A stretch of DNA of 64,000 nucleotides from positions 1,364,001-1,428,000 of the forward strand of contig NC_017098.1 of assembly GCF_000242595.2 (NCBI RefSeq), written 5' to 3'. The stretch is from Spirochaeta africana DSM 8902 (GTDB lineage: Bacteria > Spirochaetota > Spirochaetia > DSM-27196 > DSM-8902). The notes under the pieces are model-generated. The model worked only from the letters and a program-made list of their open reading frames with translations. It was not told the DNA's origin and made no database searches. The translations under genes and the position numbers were made by a program. Shown here piece by piece: positions 19,980 through 32,042 of this stretch. The stretch's first letter is position 1. The number at the start of each line of letters is the position of its first letter.

Positions 19980-22799
19980 GTGTTTCTAAAAAGTGTCGAG
20001 GTGTTCGGGTTCAAGTCCTTCGCCGATAAAAGCCGCATCGAGTTTTCACCTGGGATATCGGCTCTGCTGGGGCCGAATGGCTGCGGCAAAAGCAATGTCG
20101 TGGATGCCATCAAGTGGGTGCTTGGCGAACAAGCCAGCCGCAGCCTTCGTGCCGAACGCATGGAGGATGTAATCTTTAACGGGACCGATACCCGCAAGCA
20201 GCTGAATGTGGCCGAGGTAAGTCTTACCCTGTCCAACGATACCGGACTGCTGCCGATGGATGTTCCGGAGGTTGAGGTCAAACGTCGTCTGTTCCGCTCG
20301 GGTACCAGCGAGTACTTTATCAACGGTGCGCCGGTGCGATTGAAAGACCTGCGGGAACTGTTCTACGACACCGGGATTGGCAAATCGGCCTACTCAATCA
20401 TGGAGCAGGGCAAGATCGATCAGGTGCTGTCCACCAAGCCGGAGGAACGCCGTACGATCTTCGAGGAAGCTGCCACAATAACCAAATACAAGATGAAGGG
20501 TGCCGAGGCCGAACGCAAACTGGAGCGTACGGTAGAGAACATGAATCAGGTGCGCAACATCCTTGCCGAGGTTGAAAAACGCTACAAGACCCTGGAGAAG
20601 CAGGCCGCTAAGACAGAGCGCTATCGTGAGCTTAAGGATCAGATCTTTCATACCGAGGTAGATCAGACCTTGCTGAAGCTGCGCAAGCTGATCAACGATC
20701 GGGACAAGACCGTACAGCAGCTGCAGGATTCCACCGCTGAGCGCGACAAGCTGAAGCAGAACATCGACCAGATAAACGAGAGCCTGGAAGAGCACATGGA
20801 AGAGGTTCACTCCATGGAGGAGCGACTGGTAGAGGCCCAGAAAAATCTCTACCGCCTCGAGGTAGAGCAGAAATCTACCCACGGGCGTCGCACCATGCTG
20901 GTTGAACGGCTGGAAGAGGTGCAGAGCAAGATCGAGACCGAGACCGGTCGCCTGGAAGGACTGCGGCAGACCATTGCCCGCATCGAGACTGGTATCAGCG
21001 AGAAGGAAACCCAGGCAGCGGATACCAACACCCGGATAGCCGAGCTCGAAACCAACATCAAGGAATTCGAGGAGTCGATCGAAACTGCATCGCGCCGGAT
21101 TGCCGATAACGAACAGCAGGCGGTGCGGCTGAATGATGAGGTTGCCTCGCTGGAGAACGAGCAGGAAGTGCTTGGTGAGGAACTGCGCGGGGTCACCGAT
21201 GTGATAGTCCAGGAGCTGGACGAACGCCTGCGCGAAAGCGGGTACTCCAGTCGGAGACGTCAGGAGCTGGAAGCGCAGATGCGGCACCTGTTGTCATCGA
21301 TCCGCATCACCCTGGAAGGGAAACGTGATGTTTTGGGGGATCTTGCCGGCCGCGACACGGTGGGATCCGGGGATCTTTCCGGTATTATCGAGGCATTACA
21401 GGGGCTGCCTGATCGGGTTGCCGAGGCTGAAGAGCTGCTCAATCAGTACCACGATGCCACGCCGGCATTCCTGGACGATTTTCTCGCGCCGGAGGGTATC
21501 ATCACCCGCAAACGCGAGATTGATGAGCGTATAGCCGCCTGTCGGGACAAGGTGCGCGACAACCGGTCCGCGATCACCACCCTGCAGGAAGAAAACCGGG
21601 AACTGCAGCGCAAACGCGACGAATACCGGCGCACCCTGGAGGAGCTGCGCCTGAACCGGGTGCAGCTGCAGAATCAGCTGCAGACCATCACCCAGGAAAT
21701 CGAGCGGGATCGACGCAGTATCGAGCAGCAGCAGCGACGCTGTGCCGAGATAGAGGAAGGCATCTCGATTGAGCGTGACCGGATACAGGGACTGAATGAG
21801 CATATCGAGAAGGTCGACCAGCAGTCCCAGGAACTGACTACCCAGGAAGCGATGGCTCGCAAGGAACTTGAGCAGCTGAACAGCGAGATTTCTTCCCGGA
21901 ATAAAAGTGTGCTCAAGAACGAGCGTCAGGTCAAGGACCAGATGCAGTCGCTGGCAAAGCTGCAGGAAAAGGTTGAGCGGATCCATCTGCGCGAGGCGGA
22001 GATCAAGGCGGATATCCGCAACCTGTATGAAAACTTCCGCGATCGTCATAGTCGTGATCTTTCCGAGTTCGAGGAGCGGACCTTCGAAATCGGCGAGCAG
22101 TACAGCGAGGTGCGCGACGCCCTGCAGCGCCTGCGCAGTGAACTGAAGGAACTCGGCCAGGTCAATCTGATGGCCCCCGAGGAGTTCGCCGAGGTAGAGG
22201 AACGCTATAACTTTCTCACCAGCCAGCTGGACGACCTCGGTCGGGCCAAACAGGATCTTGACCGAATCACCGCCGAGATCCGCAAGGAGTCGACACAGCT
22301 GTTTCTGGAGACGTACGAGAAGATAAAGCGCAACTTTCATACCCTGTTCCGTCGCTTGTTCGGTGGTGGGCGTGCCGAGATCCGGCTGGTAGATCCCGAT
22401 GATGTCCTCGAGTCGGGTATCGAGATCCTGGCACAACCGCCGGGCAAGAAACTGGAGAATATCAACCTGCTTTCCGGTGGTGAGCGATCTATGACTGCGG
22501 TCGCACTGCTGTTTGCAACCTACATGGTAAAGCCTTCCCCATTCTGTCTGCTGGACGAGATCGATGCCGCACTGGACGAGGAGAATGTCGGGCGCTTCGT
22601 CGGGGTACTGACCGAGTTTGCCAAGGAAAGCCAGTTCATTGTGATAACCCACAACAAGAAAACCGTAGGCGGGGCCCAGACCCTGCTTGGGGTAACCATG
22701 GAGGAGTCCGGTGTCTCCAAGGTTATATCCATACGCCTTGATACCCGTTCCGAGGGTGATGAGCCGGCAGAGGAGGAGGCGGTTGCAGAGCTTACCTGA
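19980..22799 (+). CDS. smc: Chromosome segregation ATPase SMC, short form
   Basis: 939 residues, compared with about 1,150-1,200 for typical bacterial SMC. The N-terminal head has FGFKSFADKS and Walker A GPNGCGKSN (31-39); the C-terminal head has LSGGERSM near 831 and Walker B CLLDEID near 855. Two long coiled coils lie between. The centre (about 405-520) contains a short non-coiled part but no recognisable hinge with the usual glycine motifs. Spirochaete P115-type SMCs are also short, so this may be a clade trait. The start is GTG at 19980 behind GGGGGAATGA. Confidence 0.92.
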   Translation: MFLKSVEVFGFKSFADKSRIEFSPGISALLGPNGCGKSNVVDAIKWVLGEQASRSLRAERMEDVIFNGTDTRKQLNVAEVSLTLSNDTGLLPMDVPEVEVKRRLFRSGTSEYFINGAPVRLKDLRELFYDTGIGKSAYSIMEQGKIDQVLSTKPEERRTIFEEAATITKYKMKGAEAERKLERTVENMNQVRNILAEVEKRYKTLEKQAAKTERYRELKDQIFHTEVDQTLLKLRKLINDRDKTVQQLQDSTAERDKLKQNIDQINESLEEHMEEVHSMEERLVEAQKNLYRLEVEQKSTHGRRTMLVERLEEVQSKIETETGRLEGLRQTIARIETGISEKETQAADTNTRIAELETNIKEFEESIETASRRIADNEQQAVRLNDEVASLENEQEVLGEELRGVTDVIVQELDERLRESGYSSRRRQELEAQMRHLLSSIRITLEGKRDVLGDLAGRDTVGSGDLSGIIEALQGLPDRVAEAEELLNQYHDATPAFLDDFLAPEGIITRKREIDERIAACRDKVRDNRSAITTLQEENRELQRKRDEYRRTLEELRLNRVQLQNQLQTITQEIERDRRSIEQQQRRCAEIEEGISIERDRIQGLNEHIEKVDQQSQELTTQEAMARKELEQLNSEISSRNKSVLKNERQVKDQMQSLAKLQEKVERIHLREAEIKADIRNLYENFRDRHSRDLSEFEERTFEIGEQYSEVRDALQRLRSELKELGQVNLMAPEEFAEVEERYNFLTSQLDDLGRAKQDLDRITAEIRKESTQLFLETYEKIKRNFHTLFRRLFGGGRAEIRLVDPDDVLESGIEILAQPPGKKLENINLLSGGERSMTAVALLFATYMVKPSPFCLLDEIDAALDEENVGRFVGVLTEFAKESQFIVITHNKKTVGGAQTLLGVTMEESGVSKVISIRLDTRSEGDEPAEEEAVAELT

Positions 22800-23163
22800 T
22801 GTCCCGGTGCGGCTGGTGGTGTTGGGAACCCTGGCCGTATCCTTGTGTATCATAGTGGTCCTCGCCATTGTGTCCCTGGTGTCTGCCGGGGACCCTCGTG
22901 AAACCAGTCCTGCCGCAGTCGCCCGGACGCACCTGACACCGCTGGAGCAGATTATCGGGCCGCTTCAGCTCCACCATTTCTACATCCCCAACCCGGAACG
23001 CGAGGTGATGGAACTGCAGATCAGCCCCTTCCGCGATCCCTCACTTCCCTGGAGCGAGGAAGAGGTGCAGATCTTCTGGCTTGATCCGCTCAAACTTGGC
23101 CTGGAAGAGGTCGAAAAAAAGAATAGAACCATGATTGAGGAGTTGTATGCTACAATTCCGTAA
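22783..23163 (+). CDS. Small single-pass membrane protein of unknown function
   Basis: About 126 residues. One transmembrane segment (VVLGTLAVSLCIIVVLAIV, near residues 11-29) is followed by a roughly 90-residue extracytoplasmic part with FYIPNPEREVMELQISP and WSEEEVQIFWLDPLKLGLE. The latter resembles the short FliL-like/envelope proteins only in layout; I do not recognise the family. A TTG start at 22783 has an excellent AGGAGGAGG; an ATG at 22759 in the same frame is an alternative adding basic residues. Either way it overlaps the end of smc, so it is co-transcribed with smc. Confidence 0.6.
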   Translation: MQSLPDVPVRLVVLGTLAVSLCIIVVLAIVSLVSAGDPRETSPAAVARTHLTPLEQIIGPLQLHHFYIPNPEREVMELQISPFRDPSLPWSEEEVQIFWLDPLKLGLEEVEKKNRTMIEELYATIP

Positions 23164-23200
23164 TGGACTGAGGTCCACAGCCCATACATAGGGAGGGGTT

Positions 23201-24883
23201 ATGGGTTATAGCAGGTATCTTGGACGCGTTTGCATGACAAAGGCGTTCGGACTGGTACGGTACGGTCTGGCTGTTGCTGCTGCTGTTGTGCTGCTGCTGT
23301 CTTGTGCCTCCGTACCGGAACCTGGTGCCAGTAGCGACTCTGCAGGTCATCCTGGCGCCGCAACCGGGGACAACACCGCTGCCGATGCAGAAGCTGCACT
23401 CGATACAGCCACTGGTTCCGGGCATGAGGATCCAGGCGCGGTACCTCGCGCCGGGCTGGAACCGGACGACATACCGATACTGACATCGCCGCAGGCAGAC
23501 AATCAGCCGGAGGCAAGCCTGCGCCGCAGTTCGACTGCTGTGCCGCAGGTTCGCCACCACGATGATCATGCCACGACAACCGAAAGCCTGTCGGGTCCTT
23601 TGCCGGTGCCCGAGATCAAAAGCACCCCGACAGCAGTCTCCGCGGAGATTCCCCTGGAAGACCGCATCCTGCCGCTGCCGGAGATCCCGGATCTTCCCGC
23701 GTCTGCTCATGCGGCAGAGCCGTCAGACGAGGCAGACGCGGAAGCTGCAGCTGCAGAGACAGCCCCACAGCCCGACCCGGATGCACCGGAGCCGCCAGCT
23801 GCAGCAGAAGAGACAATGCAACCAGCCGAGCCAGACGCAGCAGAGGAGCCAGCTTCAGCTGCAGAGGCCGCCGCAGCTGAAGATGCAACGCCAGCGGCCG
23901 CCCCTGCCGCTCCGGCTTCTGCCGCCCCCGCTGCACCAGAGCCGCCAGCCGTGACACCCCCTGGCCCTGCTTCGTCAGATCTGCACGACGCACCTCCGGC
24001 ACTGGAAAACGCCGCGGTGGACCATACCGTCCAGGCCGGCCCCGAGGAGTCCTTCAGGGTGGTGCTGCCGGGGGGCAGCTGGATATATCTTGGTGAGCGG
24101 GACGGAAAGCGACAGGTGTCTTTCGTTTCGCGTTCGCACCGCGACGGTGATACCGAGTTTGTTTTTCGCTCGAGCGAGGCTGGTGAGTATCTTCTGGGCT
24201 TTCAGCGGCAGGATCTCAGTCGAGGGGTTACCGAGCGGATGCTGGCGCGGGCCGAGGTTACCGAGGATGCAGCAGATGCTGACGACAGCGAGTCCCGCGG
24301 CACCGGCCATTCCACGACTGGACCATCGGCTGACGCCGACGGTGACGTGGACGCACCGGGGTCAACCTTGCCGGGGTTAGATACGGCCGTTGCACCCGAC
24401 ATATCCCCGCAAGCCGGTATATCGAGTGATCCTGCTGCCGAGACCGCTATGGGAGATCGGGCGCCGGATTCGGGAGGGCGGGATTCAGGCACACCGGATT
24501 CGGCTGATCTGCCCCGGCTGCTGGATGCCGGTAATGCCGAGGGTATCAGTCACGTGCTGCAGCGAGTCGCACCAGACGAGCTGGCAGACGAGCATGATAC
24601 TGCTGTACTGCTGCAGGCACTTGCCGAGGTTATGAGTCTGGATCGGCCGAATGGAGCAGGGGGCTTGCTGCAGCAGCTGCTCCAGGACGAAGCCGCTCGC
24701 GAATCACGTCCGCAGCTGCTGTACTGGCTGGGACAGTACTATGAGCATCCAGATACCCGTGATTACCGGCGAGCCGTGGAGCACTATTCCGAGCTTGAGC
24801 AACGCTATCCCTTTCACGAGCTGGCAGAGCCGGCTGGGGTTCGTCGTCGATTTCTGCGCCGGCATTTTATGGATATCCGATAG
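23201..24883 (+). CDS. Large lipoprotein with Ala/Pro/Glu-rich linker and TPR-like C-terminus
   Basis: 560 residues. An N-terminal signal region ends in the lipobox LLLSC near residue 36. Residues 60-270 are a low-complexity Ala/Glu/Pro linker. A compact domain follows near 285-350 (PGGSWIYLGERDGKR, DTEFVFRSSEAGEYLLGFQR), resembling a small beta domain that could bind a partner. After a second linker, residues 435-560 look like tetratricopeptide helices (LLYWLGQYYEHPDTRDYRRA, then FHELAEPAG), as in YbgF/BamD-type proteins. It is probably an envelope scaffold; the exact role is unknown. The start has GGGAGGGG; the next gene follows after 7 nt. Confidence 0.75.
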   Translation: MGYSRYLGRVCMTKAFGLVRYGLAVAAAVVLLLSCASVPEPGASSDSAGHPGAATGDNTAADAEAALDTATGSGHEDPGAVPRAGLEPDDIPILTSPQADNQPEASLRRSSTAVPQVRHHDDHATTTESLSGPLPVPEIKSTPTAVSAEIPLEDRILPLPEIPDLPASAHAAEPSDEADAEAAAAETAPQPDPDAPEPPAAAEETMQPAEPDAAEEPASAAEAAAAEDATPAAAPAAPASAAPAAPEPPAVTPPGPASSDLHDAPPALENAAVDHTVQAGPEESFRVVLPGGSWIYLGERDGKRQVSFVSRSHRDGDTEFVFRSSEAGEYLLGFQRQDLSRGVTERMLARAEVTEDAADADDSESRGTGHSTTGPSADADGDVDAPGSTLPGLDTAVAPDISPQAGISSDPAAETAMGDRAPDSGGRDSGTPDSADLPRLLDAGNAEGISHVLQRVAPDELADEHDTAVLLQALAEVMSLDRPNGAGGLLQQLLQDEAARESRPQLLYWLGQYYEHPDTRDYRRAVEHYSELEQRYPFHELAEPAGVRRRFLRRHFMDIR

Positions 24884-24890
24884 GGGCAGT

Positions 24891-25925
24891 ATGAATCTTA
24901 TCTCACGGAAAAAGCGCATCTATCCAGTGCAGGCACCGCTGCGCGAGTACCTTGCTGCCTATGATCGGACAGTGGAGCTACAGCTGGGTTATGACGATCT
25001 GATGGATTACTATGTAGCAGCGCCGTACTATGATTCCAGCGGTCGGGATACCCTCTGGATAACTGTGCAGTATCACACCAGCGAGCAGGACCGTATCCAC
25101 GCCGGCTTGCTGCATGCATACAGCTGTATCCGGGCCGACGGTGATCTGAGTTTTGTACGCCATCTGGTGGTGGACCGGGTTGACCTGTGTACCTACGGTA
25201 ATACCCAGCCGTTCCGGATTCGCATACTCAATCCTCTGAATGAAAACTTTGACTACTTCTATATCAAGCAGGCCGACGCCTCGCGGATCTACGGGCTTGA
25301 GCTTGAACATCTGCTGTCACCCAATCGGCTGAGTTTCCAGGTTTCCGGTGATACCCTCGCCGAGGAGCATATCGTTGGCATACCGGGTGACAAATTTATC
25401 GAAAGCAGACTGCAGGATGACCATCTTGACGAGGTCCGCCTTGCCAAGGAGTTCGTCAAGTTCAATGAGCGATGCTTTCTGCGGCTGCTCGGCGATATGC
25501 ACAGCAACAACTTTGTGATCGAGGTAATGCCGGATTTCGAGGAGACCATCTACCGCATCCGGGCTATCGATTTCGACCAGCAGTGTTACGAGGGTAATTA
25601 CAAGGTATACCTGCCGCAGTTCTTCAAGCAGAACAACCCGATCATACAGCTTGGCTTGCGCTGCATGCAGCCGGAAACCACCCGGCAGTACCAGCACGAG
25701 GAGCGTTCACTGATGCAGAAGCGAATGCAGGCATCCTGGGAACAGCTGACCGGACTGCTGGATGTAATGCAGGTAGACACTATTGCCCCGGCAGAGAATG
25801 TGGCCAGCCTGGGTCAGCAGCTGGCTGAATATCATCATCAGCCCGATTTTGCCAGGGCCGAAAGCATGGGAGCTATTGTCCGGCTTTCGCTCAGTATGCT
25901 CGATACCTTGACAGCATCCGGTTAG
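24891..25925 (+). CDS. Conserved protein with kinase-like HxxN and DFD motifs
   Basis: 344 residues, cytoplasmic, no signal peptide. I do not recognise a named family. However, FLRLLGDMHSNNFVIEV near residue 200 followed by IRAIDFDQQCYEGN near 223 looks like the catalytic loop (GDxHxxN) and metal-binding DFD of aminoglycoside-phosphotransferase/HipA-type kinases. An upstream YIKQAD near 125 could supply the ATP lysine, with a glutamate in YGLELEHL. If so, it is a divergent small-molecule or protein kinase. It is 7 nt from the preceding lipoprotein gene and precedes ffh, which has its own promoter inside the end of this gene. Confidence 0.6.
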   Translation: MNLISRKKRIYPVQAPLREYLAAYDRTVELQLGYDDLMDYYVAAPYYDSSGRDTLWITVQYHTSEQDRIHAGLLHAYSCIRADGDLSFVRHLVVDRVDLCTYGNTQPFRIRILNPLNENFDYFYIKQADASRIYGLELEHLLSPNRLSFQVSGDTLAEEHIVGIPGDKFIESRLQDDHLDEVRLAKEFVKFNERCFLRLLGDMHSNNFVIEVMPDFEETIYRIRAIDFDQQCYEGNYKVYLPQFFKQNNPIIQLGLRCMQPETTRQYQHEERSLMQKRMQASWEQLTGLLDVMQVDTIAPAENVASLGQQLAEYHHQPDFARAESMGAIVRLSLSMLDTLTASG

Positions 25926-25936
25926 TCCTATATAAA
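25908..25936 (+). promoter_or_regulatory. Consensus promoter of ffh (leaderless geometry)
   Basis: TTGACA (25908-25913), exactly 17 nt, TATAAA (25931-25936), then only AAGTGG before the ATG at 25943. This is the best promoter in the window, and it lies inside the end of the upstream gene. Confidence 0.8.
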
Positions 25937-25942
25937 AAGTGG

Positions 25943-27280
25943 ATGCTTGATCGGATCTCTCAGAAGTTCAGCGACCTGTTTCGTTCCGTGAGCGGGAACA
26001 ACCGTATCACCGAGCAAAACGTCAGAGATGTAGTGCAGGAGATCAAGGTTGCTCTGCTCGAGGCAGATGTCAATGTCAGGGTAGTGCGTCGGTTTGTGAA
26101 CAGAACCCTTGAGGACGCTACCGGAGATGCAGTTCTTCGGTCGGTTTCCCCGGGACAGATGTTTACCAAGATCGTGCATGACCGACTGGTCGAATTTCTC
26201 GGGGATGAACGGCAGGATCTGCAGCTCAAGGGACCGGATACGGTTTCGCCGATACTGCTGCTGGGTCTGCAGGGCTCCGGGAAAACTACCACGGCGGCCA
26301 AGCTGGCGGCTCGACTGTCCAGGGAAGGTCGGAAGGTCTTGCTGGTTGCAGCTGACCTGGTGCGCCCGGCAGCGGTTGATCAGCTGCAGGTTCTGGGTGA
26401 GCGCATCGGGGTTGCCGTCCATGTCGTGGATGGAGCCAGGGACCCGGTCGCAGTTGCCAAAGCCGGACTGAAACGGGCAAAAAAAGAGCTGTACGATACG
26501 GTAATAGTTGATACATCCGGTCGTATGCAGGTAGATGCAGCCCTGATGAAAGAGCTGCAGGCGGTCAAGAAGGTGGTTCAGCCGGTTGAAAGCGTGCTGG
26601 TAGCCGACTCGATGACCGGTCAGAGCGCAGTCGACATCGCCAAGGAATTTAACGAACAGATTGGTCTGAGCGGGATCATTCTGAGCAAGTTTGATTCGGA
26701 TGCCCGTGGCGGTGCAGCACTGTCGTTAAAGACCATTACCGGCACCCCGATCAAGTTCATCGGTGTCGGCGAAAAAACCGAAGACCTGGAGCCGTTTTAT
26801 CCTGACCGGATTGCCGGCCGGATACTCGGAATGGGCGATGTTGTCAGCCTGGTCGAAAAGGCACAGGAGACAATAGACGAGCAGGAAGCGCTGGAGCTCC
26901 AGCAAAAGATGGCCAAGGCCAACTTTTCGCTGGCTGATTATCTTGATCAGATTCAGCGGGTCAAGAAGATGGGCAGCATGGAGTCCCTGCTGGGCATGAT
27001 CCCCGGCATGCAGGGGCGTGTATCAGAAGAGGATCTGAATACCGATGAGCTGAAGTACGAGGAGGCGATCCTGCAGTCCATGACGCGGGTCGAGCTCGAA
27101 AACTATCGGATTATCGGAATTAATCGGCGCAAGCGTATAGCCAGAGGCAGCGGTACCACCGTTTATCAGGTAAACCGCATGCTGAAGAAGTTCGACAAGA
27201 TGCGCACCATGATGAAGAAAGTAACCAAAAACAAGAAATACCAGGCCCAGTTGATGCAACAGCTGGGCGGAATGCAGTAA
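25943..27280 (+). CDS. ffh: Signal recognition particle GTPase
   Basis: 445 residues. Ffh binds signal peptides and the 4.5S RNA and delivers ribosomes to FtsY at the membrane. NG domain: LLGLQGSGKTTTAAKLA near 107 (G1), DLVRPAAVDQLQ near 139, DTSGRMQVD near 190 (G3), SKFDSDARGG near 249 (G4) and GVGEKTEDLEPF near 273. The M domain, residues 300-445, is methionine-rich, with MESLLGMIPGM and the RNA-binding INRRKRIARGSGT. The consensus promoter places transcription at the start codon. It heads the ribosome-related operon through rplS. Confidence 0.97.
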   Translation: MLDRISQKFSDLFRSVSGNNRITEQNVRDVVQEIKVALLEADVNVRVVRRFVNRTLEDATGDAVLRSVSPGQMFTKIVHDRLVEFLGDERQDLQLKGPDTVSPILLLGLQGSGKTTTAAKLAARLSREGRKVLLVAADLVRPAAVDQLQVLGERIGVAVHVVDGARDPVAVAKAGLKRAKKELYDTVIVDTSGRMQVDAALMKELQAVKKVVQPVESVLVADSMTGQSAVDIAKEFNEQIGLSGIILSKFDSDARGGAALSLKTITGTPIKFIGVGEKTEDLEPFYPDRIAGRILGMGDVVSLVEKAQETIDEQEALELQQKMAKANFSLADYLDQIQRVKKMGSMESLLGMIPGMQGRVSEEDLNTDELKYEEAILQSMTRVELENYRIIGINRRKRIARGSGTTVYQVNRMLKKFDKMRTMMKKVTKNKKYQAQLMQQLGGMQ

Positions 27281-27297
27281 CGGAAACGGAGGCACGA

Positions 27298-27552
27298 GTG
27301 AGTGTAAAAATTCGTCTGAAACGACTGGGAACAAAAAAGCGTCCCTGCTATCGAATTGTGGCAATCGACTCCCGCAGCGCACGGGACAGCCGTCCTATTG
27401 AGGAGCTTGGGTACTACCAGCCTATCAATAAAGACGAGAACAGTCAGGTAAACCTGAAAGAGGATCGCATCCGCGAGTGGCTGAGCAACGGGGCTACCCC
27501 GTCACCTACCGTCAAGCGCTTGCTCAATCGACGAAACATCACCGTAAAATAA
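27298..27552 (+). CDS. rpsP: 30S ribosomal protein S16
   Basis: 84 residues with the S16 signature VKIRLKRLGTKKRPCYRIV at the N-terminus and the conserved RPIEELGYYQP near 33. GTG start at 27298, with GGAGGCAC upstream. It sits 17 nt after ffh, the classic ffh-rpsP-rimM-trmD-rplS order. Confidence 0.98.
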   Translation: MSVKIRLKRLGTKKRPCYRIVAIDSRSARDSRPIEELGYYQPINKDENSQVNLKEDRIREWLSNGATPSPTVKRLLNRRNITVK

Positions 27553-29415: not shown

Positions 29416-29439
29416 GCCTGCCGCTGCACCGGAGTGCAC

Positions 29440-30663
29440 ATGGAACCGATCGGACGTTTTTTACAGGCGGTACTCCCCCTTGGAAAACGATCGGTCGGCC
29501 TGCAGCCGGGCAGCACCGTTCAGGCAACAGTTCTCAAGCCGCTCGGGGCTAATCGCTGGCTTATCCAGGCTGGCTCCCAGCGGCTTACCGCACATTCAAC
29601 CCTGCAGCTTTCCCCCCATCAGTCACTCAAGGTCCGTATCGAACAGGGCCCGGAAGGACTGCTTTTTCGCGTGGTCGAGCCCGATGCCCAGGCCGATCGG
29701 CTTGCCCAGCTGCTCCACCAGCACGGGATCGAAACCCATCTGCCGGAGTTCCGGTCGGTCCTGGAGAGCCTGGTCCAGGTTGGCATCCCCCTGTCCGAAC
29801 ACTATACCGTTCCGGCGCTGGAACAGTTCTCACGCCTGCTGAGAGAGCATCCCGGGGTGCAGCGCCGGTATCGTGAGGCATCACGGCTTATCGCCATGTT
29901 CAGTGATCGCGGACTGCGCGTGCCCGATGACATGATCCTGGAACTGCTTGGTTTCGGTGATTCACCCGGGAAAGAGCATGGCCGGGATCACCCCGGGCAG
30001 CAGCAGGGTCATCAGTCCACCAGAGATGAGGACAGTGCGGCCTCGCCGGATTCCGATCCGCAGGAGGAGCTGCCAGCAGAGCAGCCAGCAGAGGGACCGC
30101 CTGCTCAGCCGCCCATAGAGGAGCAGCCAGCAGAGCAGCAGCCAGCAGAGCAGCAGCCAGCAGAGCAGCAGCCAGCAGAGCAGCAGCCTGCAGAGCCACC
30201 AGCGAACAGCCCGACCGATGAGGACCAGGCCTGTCCACAACTGCAGCTGCCGTCGGCGCACGCTTCCGCACATGCCGGGTTGTCTCTGTTGGCATCGCTG
30301 CATAACCGTGAGCATCCCTGGGTTGTGGTGCCATTCCGCTATCTTCCGGGGGCGGACGATCATCTGTCGGGAACTATTCGGCTTCGTATGCACCTGGGCA
30401 GGACAGAACTGGCAATACTGGATGTGCCAACAGAATCCGGACGCTGGGTATTCAGCTGGGTACCGGACGCACCCGGTTCTTTGCGGGTATATACCGATCA
30501 TGCCGACAAGGAGGGGGCAACCGGAATCCTGCAGCAGCTCAGGGAGTTTCTGGCTAATACCCCGCTTGCACCGCCCGATGGACTGCATGGACTATCCGGC
30601 TGGGACGGTTTTTCGTATCAGGAGCACACCCCGGAGGTCAAACATGTCGATGCCCACGGGTAA
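29440..30663 (+). CDS. FliK-like hypothetical protein with glutamine/proline repeats
   Basis: 407 residues. N-terminal part: VGLQPGSTVQATVLKPLG and LQLSPHQSLKVRIEQGPEG, a small beta domain. Residues 205-265 are QPAEQ-type repeats, from a 15-bp DNA repeat near 30120-30190. The C-terminal domain (PFRYLPGADDHLSGTIRLRM, then AILDVPTESGRWVFSW) resembles the C-terminal FliK/YlqG-type export-switch domain. In Bacillus subtilis the order after rplS also leads to ylqG and ylqH, which this and the next gene mimic. The role is inferred: a secretion-substrate or hook-length-like protein. ATG 29440 has GGAG 5 nt upstream. Confidence 0.55.
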   Translation: MEPIGRFLQAVLPLGKRSVGLQPGSTVQATVLKPLGANRWLIQAGSQRLTAHSTLQLSPHQSLKVRIEQGPEGLLFRVVEPDAQADRLAQLLHQHGIETHLPEFRSVLESLVQVGIPLSEHYTVPALEQFSRLLREHPGVQRRYREASRLIAMFSDRGLRVPDDMILELLGFGDSPGKEHGRDHPGQQQGHQSTRDEDSAASPDSDPQEELPAEQPAEGPPAQPPIEEQPAEQQPAEQQPAEQQPAEQQPAEPPANSPTDEDQACPQLQLPSAHASAHAGLSLLASLHNREHPWVVVPFRYLPGADDHLSGTIRLRMHLGRTELAILDVPTESGRWVFSWVPDAPGSLRVYTDHADKEGATGILQQLREFLANTPLAPPDGLHGLSGWDGFSYQEHTPEVKHVDAHG

Positions 30664-30925
30664 ACCCTTGCGAGCAGTTGCGGTGCGCTACACCACCAAT
30701 CTGCCAGCCCCCGTGCTGGTCGGCAAGGGGCAGCGCCTGCACGCTGAACGCATCCTGGAGATAGCCCGGGAGCATGGTATCCAGGTGGTGCAGGATCCGG
30801 ATTTGCTGGAGGAACTGTACCCATTGCAGATTGAGGAGCTGATCCCCGAATCATTGTATGAATCAGTGGCAAGATTGCTGCAGTTTGTTTATACTTTGCA
30901 CAACAATGAGAAGAATATCAGTTAA
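30644..30925 (+). CDS. Stand-alone FlhB C-terminal-domain protein (YlqH/FhlB-like)
   Basis: 93 residues matching the cytoplasmic tail of FlhB/YscU after the cleavage site: RAVAVRYTTNLPAPVLVGKG, IAREHGIQVVQDPDLLEELY and IPESLYESVARLLQFVY. The NPTH autocleavage motif is absent, as in other free-standing FlhB-C proteins, some of which can replace the C-terminal fragment of FlhB. It overlaps the preceding FliK-like gene by 20 nt and the HD-GYP gene by 20 nt. The Shine-Dalgarno is GGAGG. Confidence 0.85.
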   Translation: MSMPTGKPLRAVAVRYTTNLPAPVLVGKGQRLHAERILEIAREHGIQVVQDPDLLEELYPLQIEELIPESLYESVARLLQFVYTLHNNEKNIS

Positions 30926-32042
30926 AGAAGTCACAGTTGGAGACCAGTTCAAAACCGGCCTGTACATAGACCCGGAGAGTATGTTCGTCGCGCCCGGGTT
31001 AGCGGTACGTCAGGTTGATCTTGACCGGCTGGAGTCCCTCAAGATTGATTATCTGTATACCAATGATCCGGCCGGGGAGACTGCCGCTCGTGGAGCATTT
31101 CTGCAGCGACCCCTGGAAAGCCCACGTATGCAGGCTATACAGTCGACCTATTCAGCCTATATCACCGCATTCCAGTCAGTCCATGATGGTATACAGCAGC
31201 GGGTTGCGGTCGATAACCAACGGGTAATCGAGCTGGTAAAAAAAATAATCGATCACCTGCGCGGGAGTGAAGGCGATACGAAAGAGTTCATGCTGTACGG
31301 TATGCAAGGCAGCAGCGGTTTTCTGCAGAATGCCGTGAATGCTGCAATTATCTCGGCATTGCTGGGCCGTCGACTCGAGTATTCCCCATCACAGCTGCAG
31401 GATCTGGTAGTTGGTGCCCTGCTGCATGACGTTGGTATGCTGAGGATTCCACCGGAGATACTCGACAAACAGGGCAGCCTCAGTGCTGAAGAACTCAGAA
31501 TCGTACATACCTATCCGGTACATTCCTATCGGATCATTACCGGGGAGCTATCCTTTCCCGATGATATCGGGGTAATTGCCCTGCAGCATCAGGAGCGCTG
31601 GAATGGTGGTGGCTACCCGAGGAATCTCTCCGGTAAGGCCATAGATCGTAATGCCCGTATCGTAGCGGTAGCAGACTCGTTTGAGGCAATGTTGAGTAAA
31701 CGCCCCTATCGCAGCAGTATGGACGGCTATAACGCCGTCAGGGCTATTCTGCGGGATAATGGACGCCGGTTCGACCCTGAAATAATCAAGGTGTTCATAC
31801 GGACCTTTGGCATTTATCCCAGGGGCTGTCTGGTACAGTTGAACGATGCCGCTATCGGGCGGGTTGTCGAGATAAACCCGGAGTCGCCATTGCGTCCCCA
31901 GGTCAAGATCATGATTGCCAGGGACGGGCACGAGTTTTCCGATGATGATGGCCCGGTGGTCAACCTGAAAGATGAGCGGCGCATGTTCATCGTCCAGGCA
32001 ATCAACCAGGAAGAGCTCCAGAGCTCTCAGCAGCTGCAATGA
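30906..32042 (+). CDS. HD-GYP domain c-di-GMP phosphodiesterase
   Basis: 378 residues. The N-terminal 120 residues resemble the DUF3391 region. The HD-GYP domain follows: ALLHDVGMLRIPPEIL (H174-D175), HTYPVHSYRII, LQHQERWNGGGYP (the GYP signature, with HQE where HHE is usual) and RIVAVADSFEAML. It would hydrolyse c-di-GMP to GMP. The C-terminus has a small beta domain. No Shine-Dalgarno is seen. A TATACT box at 30890-30895 lies 10 nt before the ATG, suggesting a leader of only a few nucleotides from an internal promoter. Confidence 0.92.
   Translation: MRRISVKEVTVGDQFKTGLYIDPESMFVAPGLAVRQVDLDRLESLKIDYLYTNDPAGETAARGAFLQRPLESPRMQAIQSTYSAYITAFQSVHDGIQQRVAVDNQRVIELVKKIIDHLRGSEGDTKEFMLYGMQGSSGFLQNAVNAAIISALLGRRLEYSPSQLQDLVVGALLHDVGMLRIPPEILDKQGSLSAEELRIVHTYPVHSYRIITGELSFPDDIGVIALQHQERWNGGGYPRNLSGKAIDRNARIVAVADSFEAMLSKRPYRSSMDGYNAVRAILRDNGRRFDPEIIKVFIRTFGIYPRGCLVQLNDAAIGRVVEINPESPLRPQVKIMIARDGHEFSDDDGPVVNLKDERRMFIVQAINQEELQSSQQLQ

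Follow-up and report, generated by a model that had tools for sequence, protein, structure and literature searches.

In the Protein Data Bank sequences of VPS34, PI4KB, PIK3CA and mTOR the motifs of the PI3K, PI4K and PIKK kinases read K-x-x-[DE]-D-L-R, [GK]-D-R-H-x-x-N and I-D-F-G. Risk1 of Rickettsia is said to be a bacterial exception to the rule that PI kinases occur only in eukaryotes. In a survey of the kinases of microbes published in 2007, PI3K is placed in the 'eukaryotic-specific families' (PMC1821047), and a phylogenomic study of 2011 describes phosphorylated inositol-lipid derivatives as strictly eukaryotic (PMC3024228). Elsewhere it is remarked that PI3_PI4_kinase might have an ancient origin and be common to bacteria and eukaryotes, and the Legionella proteins LepB, AnkK and MavQ are described as phosphatidylinositol kinases that belong, like the eukaryotic ones, to the kinase-like superfamily (PMC9758233). 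The Legionella proteins are effectors injected into the host, where they act on membranes. Newer protein-kinase-like families have been collected in KINtaro (PMC10870513).

The gene described here lies in a window of 64,000 nucleotides from Spirochaeta africana DSM 8902 (NC_017098.1, positions 1,364,001 to 1,428,000), to which all coordinates refer. A first-pass annotation of the window had proposed that it might encode an unrecognised family of kinases, likened to APH and HipA. No description of the family was found in the literature, mostly open-access papers, though one may exist.

The gene and its conserved residues

The gene starts with an ATG at position 24891 and its stop codon finishes at 25925. 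It is flanked by a 560-residue lipoprotein-like ORF and by the 445-residue ffh ORF. The probable ribosome-binding site overlaps the stop codon of the lipoprotein-like ORF, which ends at 24883. The gene may be co-transcribed with its neighbours, because only 7 bases separate it from the lipoprotein-like ORF and ffh starts at 25943. No terminator-like or promoter-like site was found on the strand of the gene in a scan of positions 22600-27400. The genome, a single contig of 3,285,855 bases, contains one copy of the gene (E 0.001). Further along the window, repeats of PAEQQ type follow one another in an ORF (29434-30663) that lies ahead of an HD-GYP-like ORF (30858-32042), both named by eye. The features of the gene, all on the + strand, are as follows.

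24882 to 24886, +: AGGGG, probable ribosome-binding site, 4 bases 5' of the ATG (sequence)
24891 to 25925, +: kinase-fold gene, 344 amino acids plus stop (ORF translation, relatives, AlphaFold2 model)
25245 to 25271, +: strand 119-127 with K126 (25266-25268), the proposed ATP lysine (DSSP on the model; 120 of 120 rows)
25275 to 25316, +: D129 and helix 130-142, with R132, E137 and E139 (model; 120-row alignment)
25491 to 25511, +: catalytic loop G201-DMHSN-N207, with the proposed catalytic Asp202 and metal-binding Asn207 (motif, conservation)
25566 to 25577, +: IDFD, residues 226-229, which would correspond to IDFG in PI3K, with the proposed metal-binding Asp227 (conservation; hhalign to IDFG)
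25578 to 25634, +: residues 230-248 (QQ...YLPQ...N), putative activation or substrate-facing segment (PI3K alignment)
25686 to 25706, +: QYQxEER, residues 266-272, helix of the C-lobe (model; Q266, Y267, E270 and E271 invariant)

The kinase proposal had been based on the sequence GDMHSNNF (residues 201-208), followed about 20 residues later by IDFD (226-229), and on an upstream IKQAD (125-129). These motifs are present in the ORF and their core residues are invariant in the family. The pattern GDxHxxN...[ILV]DF occurs once in the six reading frames of the window, in this gene, and arises in 7 of 200,000 shuffled versions of its product.

Conservation, a stronger test than these counts, was assessed in an alignment of 120 rows, one of which is the window protein. 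A few rows are duplicates, being either the same gene taken twice (e.g. L012/L098) or identical sequences (L072/L128). All 32 further loci tried for this alignment (L096-L125, L128 and L130) were retained, and L090-L095 and L129 were excluded as repeats of loci already included. K126, D129, R132, G201, D202, M203, N207, D227, F228 and D229 are found in every row, and L200, the residue that precedes GD, is invariant too. The extended pattern K..D..R ... GD.[HR]..N ... [ILV]DF fits 119 of the rows. E137 and E139 are each present in 119 rows, as is P242, and Q231, Y240 and N248 in all 120. Residue 204 (25500-25502) is a histidine in 83 rows and an arginine in 37. Since this position varies while D202, M203 and N207 do not, two catalytic subtypes may exist. 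Altogether 69 columns are conserved at 97% or more, E158, H160 and the residues of the ATP site among them. Invariance near that of the ATP site is also seen at N104, N114, N117, H160, the KEFVKFNER helix, YLPQ and QYQxEER.

Searches of family libraries support the statements of the first-pass annotation that the family is unrecognised and that the protein has no other known domain. The window protein matches no Pfam family at E 10. Among 48 relatives 13 scattered Pfam families appear, each in one to three members and with a best E of 0.015. There is no convincing match in Pfam, NCBIfam, PADLOC or PHROGs for the window protein or these relatives, and no PDB sequence was matched with an E lower than 0.08. 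Weak matches of single members to PHROG 7140 (E 1.4e-4), PD-T4-2_A (E 0.0029) and Csx19 (E 0.0011), and of five members to Tgl (best E 0.0076), were taken as chance. The Pfam protein-kinase model Pkinase (PF00069) gives no match, and the loop reads L-G-D-M-[HR]-x-x-N as against HRD-K-x-x-N in protein kinases. At E 10 the Pfam model PI3_PI4_kinase (PF00454) matches neither the window protein nor any other part of its genome, and it is absent from the families matched by the 48 members at E 5. As the profile test fails, the family should not be filed as a member of PF00454, although its mode of action is probably that of a member. Among 188 genomes from the phylum of Plesiocystis PF00454 was met in 2, both times below the cut-off, as was the Corynebacterium glutamicum control.

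Predicted fold and comparison with known kinases

The AlphaFold2 model of the protein, calculated with 48 sequences, is a confident bilobal kinase (pLDDT 91.8, pTM 0.89), which bears out the kinase assignment; the first-pass annotation had named a fold lacking this architecture as the result that would refute it. A second model, in which the Plesiocystis protein was the first of 30 sequences, has a pLDDT of 87.2 and nearly the same elements; both models derive from the same family alignment. K126 falls where a strand finishes, and a helix follows closely. This position and its invariance fit the role of ATP lysine that had been suggested for the lysine of IKQAD.

Structural comparisons of the two models point to PI3K-like enzymes. 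The VIA-align 2 lists were drawn from the best 1000 chains of Foldseek, with 50 entries shown per model. All 50 entries listed for the window protein are PI3K, PI4K or PIKK kinases, the best being VPS34 (Z 13.5, rmsd 4.5, 270 residues aligned), with PI4KIIIbeta (Z 13.1, rmsd 4.1, 260 aligned) and mTOR (Z 13.1, rmsd 4.7, 274 aligned) also listed. The list of the second member again consists entirely of such kinases, 50 out of 50, with VPS34 at Z 12.9, rmsd 4.5 and 265 aligned residues. The predicted models of two members thus show the PI3K-type bilobal catalytic fold. APH and HipA entries are not among the 50 rows shown for either model, which excludes neither. Drosophila VPS34 is the top Foldseek row for both models (E 3.1e-5 and 1.6e-4), and in the second case it ties with the JAK2 pseudokinase. 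The query TM-scores of Foldseek are low, 0.38-0.43, and many ordinary protein kinases are close behind in E-value. In a library of viral structures protein kinases lead by E-value. Of the 50 viral rows listed, a phage protein annotated with a PI3/4-kinase domain (A0A6J5MJB0, uncultured Caudovirales) is in the top two by query TM-score, at 0.38, but it is 614 residues long, ranks 26th with an E of 1e-3 and is only 14% identical.

VPS34 (PIK3C3) is the best structural match and shares with the window protein a lysine followed by a close helix in the arrangement K-x-x-D-x-x-R, the loop G-D-x-H-x-x-N and the I-D-F triplet. Nevertheless, the two sequences are 8-10% identical and VPS34 has 887 residues compared to 344. 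The counterparts of the PI3K signatures in the window protein are K126-Q-A-D129-A-S-R132, G-D-M-[HR]-x-x-N and I-D-F-D. The first of these corresponds to the K-x-x-[DE]-x-x-R of VPS34, PI4KB, PIK3CA and mTOR, and D129 with helix 130-142 is proposed to be the equivalent of the PI3K segment K-x-G-D-D-L-R. In the longer form of that motif, K-x-G-[DE]-D-L-R-Q-[DE], the three positions occupied by K126, D129 and R132 are invariant in the family, whereas the Q-[DE] position is I133-Y134. The D-R-H of VPS34 is D-M-[HR] here: the arginine is replaced by methionine in 120 of 120 rows and the histidine by arginine in 37. The glycine of IDFG is an aspartate in all 120 rows. The stretch from N207 to IDFD has 18 residues, compared to 11 in VPS34 and 11-12 in the PI3K comparison as a whole. 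PI4-kinase III beta, although alike in fold, shows the same differences in sequence as VPS34. The PIKK kinases mTOR, Tel1/ATM and SMG1 are present in both top-50 lists, but they are giant proteins.

Profile-profile comparisons with hhalign are less decisive. The family gives an E of 0.12 with VPS34 alone and of 0.027 with the four PI3K sequences, neither of which is significant. The latter match extends over 130 columns, which span the catalytic loop, IDFD/IDFG, the LPQ/LPPP stretch and the helices that follow; the global mode produced a meaningless alignment of the same sequences. Fourteen APH proteins gave an E of 0.024 over 34 columns, but this profile consists of those 14 of 20 loci that passed a motif filter, which favours such a match. 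With HipA (7 of 12 loci had a usable protein) the E was 0.85 and the alignment was out of register. In the controls APH against PI3K gave 0.0019, APH against HipA 0.61 and HipA against PI3K 0.17. The first of these indicates that such scores reflect the shared motif. The HipA part of the earlier APH/HipA comparison is disfavoured, and the APH part is weakened, although the APH profile ties with that of PI3K. On the predicted models PI3K/PI4K is the better comparison. In short, the sequence alone says kinase, whereas the predicted fold says PI3K type.

Distribution and genomic setting of the family

Relatives of nearly full length are found in three phyla and share 41-59% identity with the window protein. 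At least 586 matching stretches are present in GTDB genomes, where one gene may hold several. The best 80 loci of that scan are 51-59% identical over nearly the full length and belong to Bacteroidota, Myxococcota and one Rubricoccaceae genome. Among sampled genomes, the gene is carried by 80 of 296 Bacteroidota (the phylum of Cesiribacter), one of them with a decayed copy, by 3 of 188 Myxococcota (the phylum of Plesiocystis, the centre genome counted) and by 8 of 392 Spirochaetota, the source genome counted. The E-value alone gave 9 Spirochaetota; one (G154/L009, E 1.2e-4) was removed as false, since it is a 530-residue ORF that resembles another protein and by eye lacks the GDxHxxN loop. The one long reading examined as a possible domain fusion, of 632 residues in another locus (L143), has an arginine-rich front that matches no Pfam family; mechanical gene calling has probably extended it too far.

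A single locus is present in 79 of the 80 Bacteroidota carriers. The other genome, G488, contains two intact copies (L144 and L145), one of which is divergent, with 41% identity to the window protein. The decayed copy (G646:C1:3158145-3158407) consists of two fragments with stop codons, so some lineages may be able to do without the gene. The family has no match in 50,697 phage records, in 72,556 plasmid records or, in a scan sensitive to close relatives only, in viral contigs, and an origin from phages or plasmids was rejected for this reason. Mobile genes for defence or toxins would look different: the family was not found in the phage and plasmid collections, occupies nearly always a single locus per carrier and changes slowly.

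In a tree of 53 rows that is mostly Bacteroidota, made by a quick method with a midpoint root, the window copy lies on a long branch and clusters with seven rows from the Myxococcota side (SH-aLRT 95). A separate clade contains the seven other Spirochaetota (SH-aLRT 100). Judged by this tree, the window copy was probably acquired horizontally from the Myxococcota/Bacteroidota side, and two separate arrivals of the family in Spirochaetota would be the simplest reading.

The genomic neighbourhood was considered as a clue to function and gave none. Mechanical gene calls were made in 80 loci with flanks of up to 6 kb, anchors being located in 76. Even the most frequent neighbour families are present in no more than 19 of the 80 loci, and there is no general partner gene. 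The products encoded around the gene in the window, named by eye, are SMC, the 22711 ORF, the lipoprotein, Ffh, S16, KH, RimM and TrmD. None of them was found next to the kinase in 87 other loci (7 of Spirochaetota with flanks of about 1.5 kb and 80 others with flanks of up to 6 kb, some shorter). With no general partner and with neighbours that are not shared, the context gives no substrate, as the first-pass annotation had already suspected for SMC, the envelope lipoprotein and SRP. ABC-transporter-like genes lie on the other strand in 7 of 20 further Bacteroidota regions, and these seven are presumably close kin. Two Bacteroidota genomes have an apparent class II fructose-bisphosphate aldolase, identified by eye, downstream of the kinase and in the same orientation (L157:5319-6413 and L158:5066-6163, with the gene adjoining each).

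Proposed nature of the enzyme and its substrate

The protein very probably has a kinase fold with a kinase active site, and the models make it likely that this fold is of the PI3K type. The best explanation of the data, which we consider a probable one, is that it represents an undescribed bacterial family of stand-alone ATP-dependent phosphotransferases with a PI3K/PI4K/PIKK fold. An active enzyme is predicted, and roles can be suggested for its residues, by analogy with established kinases. ATP would be held in the cleft between the lobes, with K126 gripping its phosphates. N207 and D227, perhaps together with D229, would bind magnesium ions, and D202, with H/R204 as a helper, would take part in moving the gamma-phosphate onto a hydroxyl group. 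The enzyme is presumably cytosolic, no signal peptide being recognizable by eye. One constant substrate is suggested by the near-invariance of residues outside the ATP site and by the 41-59% identity of relatives in three phyla. Our guess is that this substrate belongs to the cell itself. A protein or a non-inositol headgroup seems most likely, rather than a phosphoinositide or a target that changes, as antibiotics and phages do.

Membership in the APH/choline-kinase branch would give the protein the same catalytic loop, an APH-type N-lobe and a metabolite as substrate. GDxHxxN and IDFD could just as well be motifs of APH, and both are aligned in the hhalign match to the motif-filtered APH set. 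That match is restricted to its 34 columns, however. The APH motif is HGD, whereas here the GD is preceded by L200. The Pfam model (PF01636) matches neither the protein nor the 48 members; it has seven matches in the source genome, and the six listed are all away from this gene. The top-50 structural lists contain PI3K-type kinases only, though APH chains may fall outside the set that was compared or shown. A small-molecule kinase of this branch is therefore unlikely. In HipA (PF07804) the D-x-H-x-x-N loop is spaced in the same way (DDHTKN in L142), which is the extent of its likeness: HipA_C matches neither the protein nor the 48 members and has no match in the source genome, while 17 of the 41 genomes searched have it, and the profile alignment is out of register. 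A toxin kinase of this kind would have an antitoxin partner, but none of the neighbour families compared is common enough for one, and the family has no match in the plasmid and phage records. We regard a HipA-like toxin as extremely improbable.

Lipid kinases are the best structural matches, and the protein could be imagined as a true lipid kinase that acts on an inositol phospholipid in the manner of VPS34 and PI4K. The distribution of myo-inositol-phosphate synthase speaks against this. The synthase is present in 48 of 296 Bacteroidota genomes, in 13 of the 80 kinase carriers and 35 of the 216 non-carriers, so the two coincide at chance level (Fisher P 1.0), although inositol might be taken up. 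None of 22 Spirochaetota tested has it, that is neither the source genome and the seven other carriers nor the 14 non-carriers; on the Myxococcota side two of four carriers do. An inositol-lipid substrate thus gains no support from co-occurrence. Furthermore, the basic activation-loop sequence KKKFGYKRER of PIK3CA has no counterpart in residues 230-248. Phosphorylation of an inositol lipid is, taken together, quite unlikely. Enzymes with other chemistry, such as AMPylation or glutamylation, are known among members of the protein-kinase-like fold (KINtaro, PMC10870513), and a pseudokinase might also be considered. The expected catalytic residues are invariant in the 120 rows, which is unexpected for a pseudokinase, and an explanation of either kind is very unlikely.

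The phosphotransferase of PI3K fold preferred here is a compact protein of 344 residues, encoded by about a quarter of the sampled Bacteroidota genomes and with its predicted active site intact. If the assignment is true, the family would offer a simple system for studying the PI3K fold, and a kinase to which no purpose has been assigned would be present in common bacteria. It is conceivable, if somewhat doubtful, that this is a vertically old housekeeping family, common in Bacteroidota and related, as a prokaryotic branch, to the PI3K/PI4K/PIKK kinases of eukaryotes. In that case it would show how this kinase fold was used earlier than phosphoinositide signalling, or apart from it.
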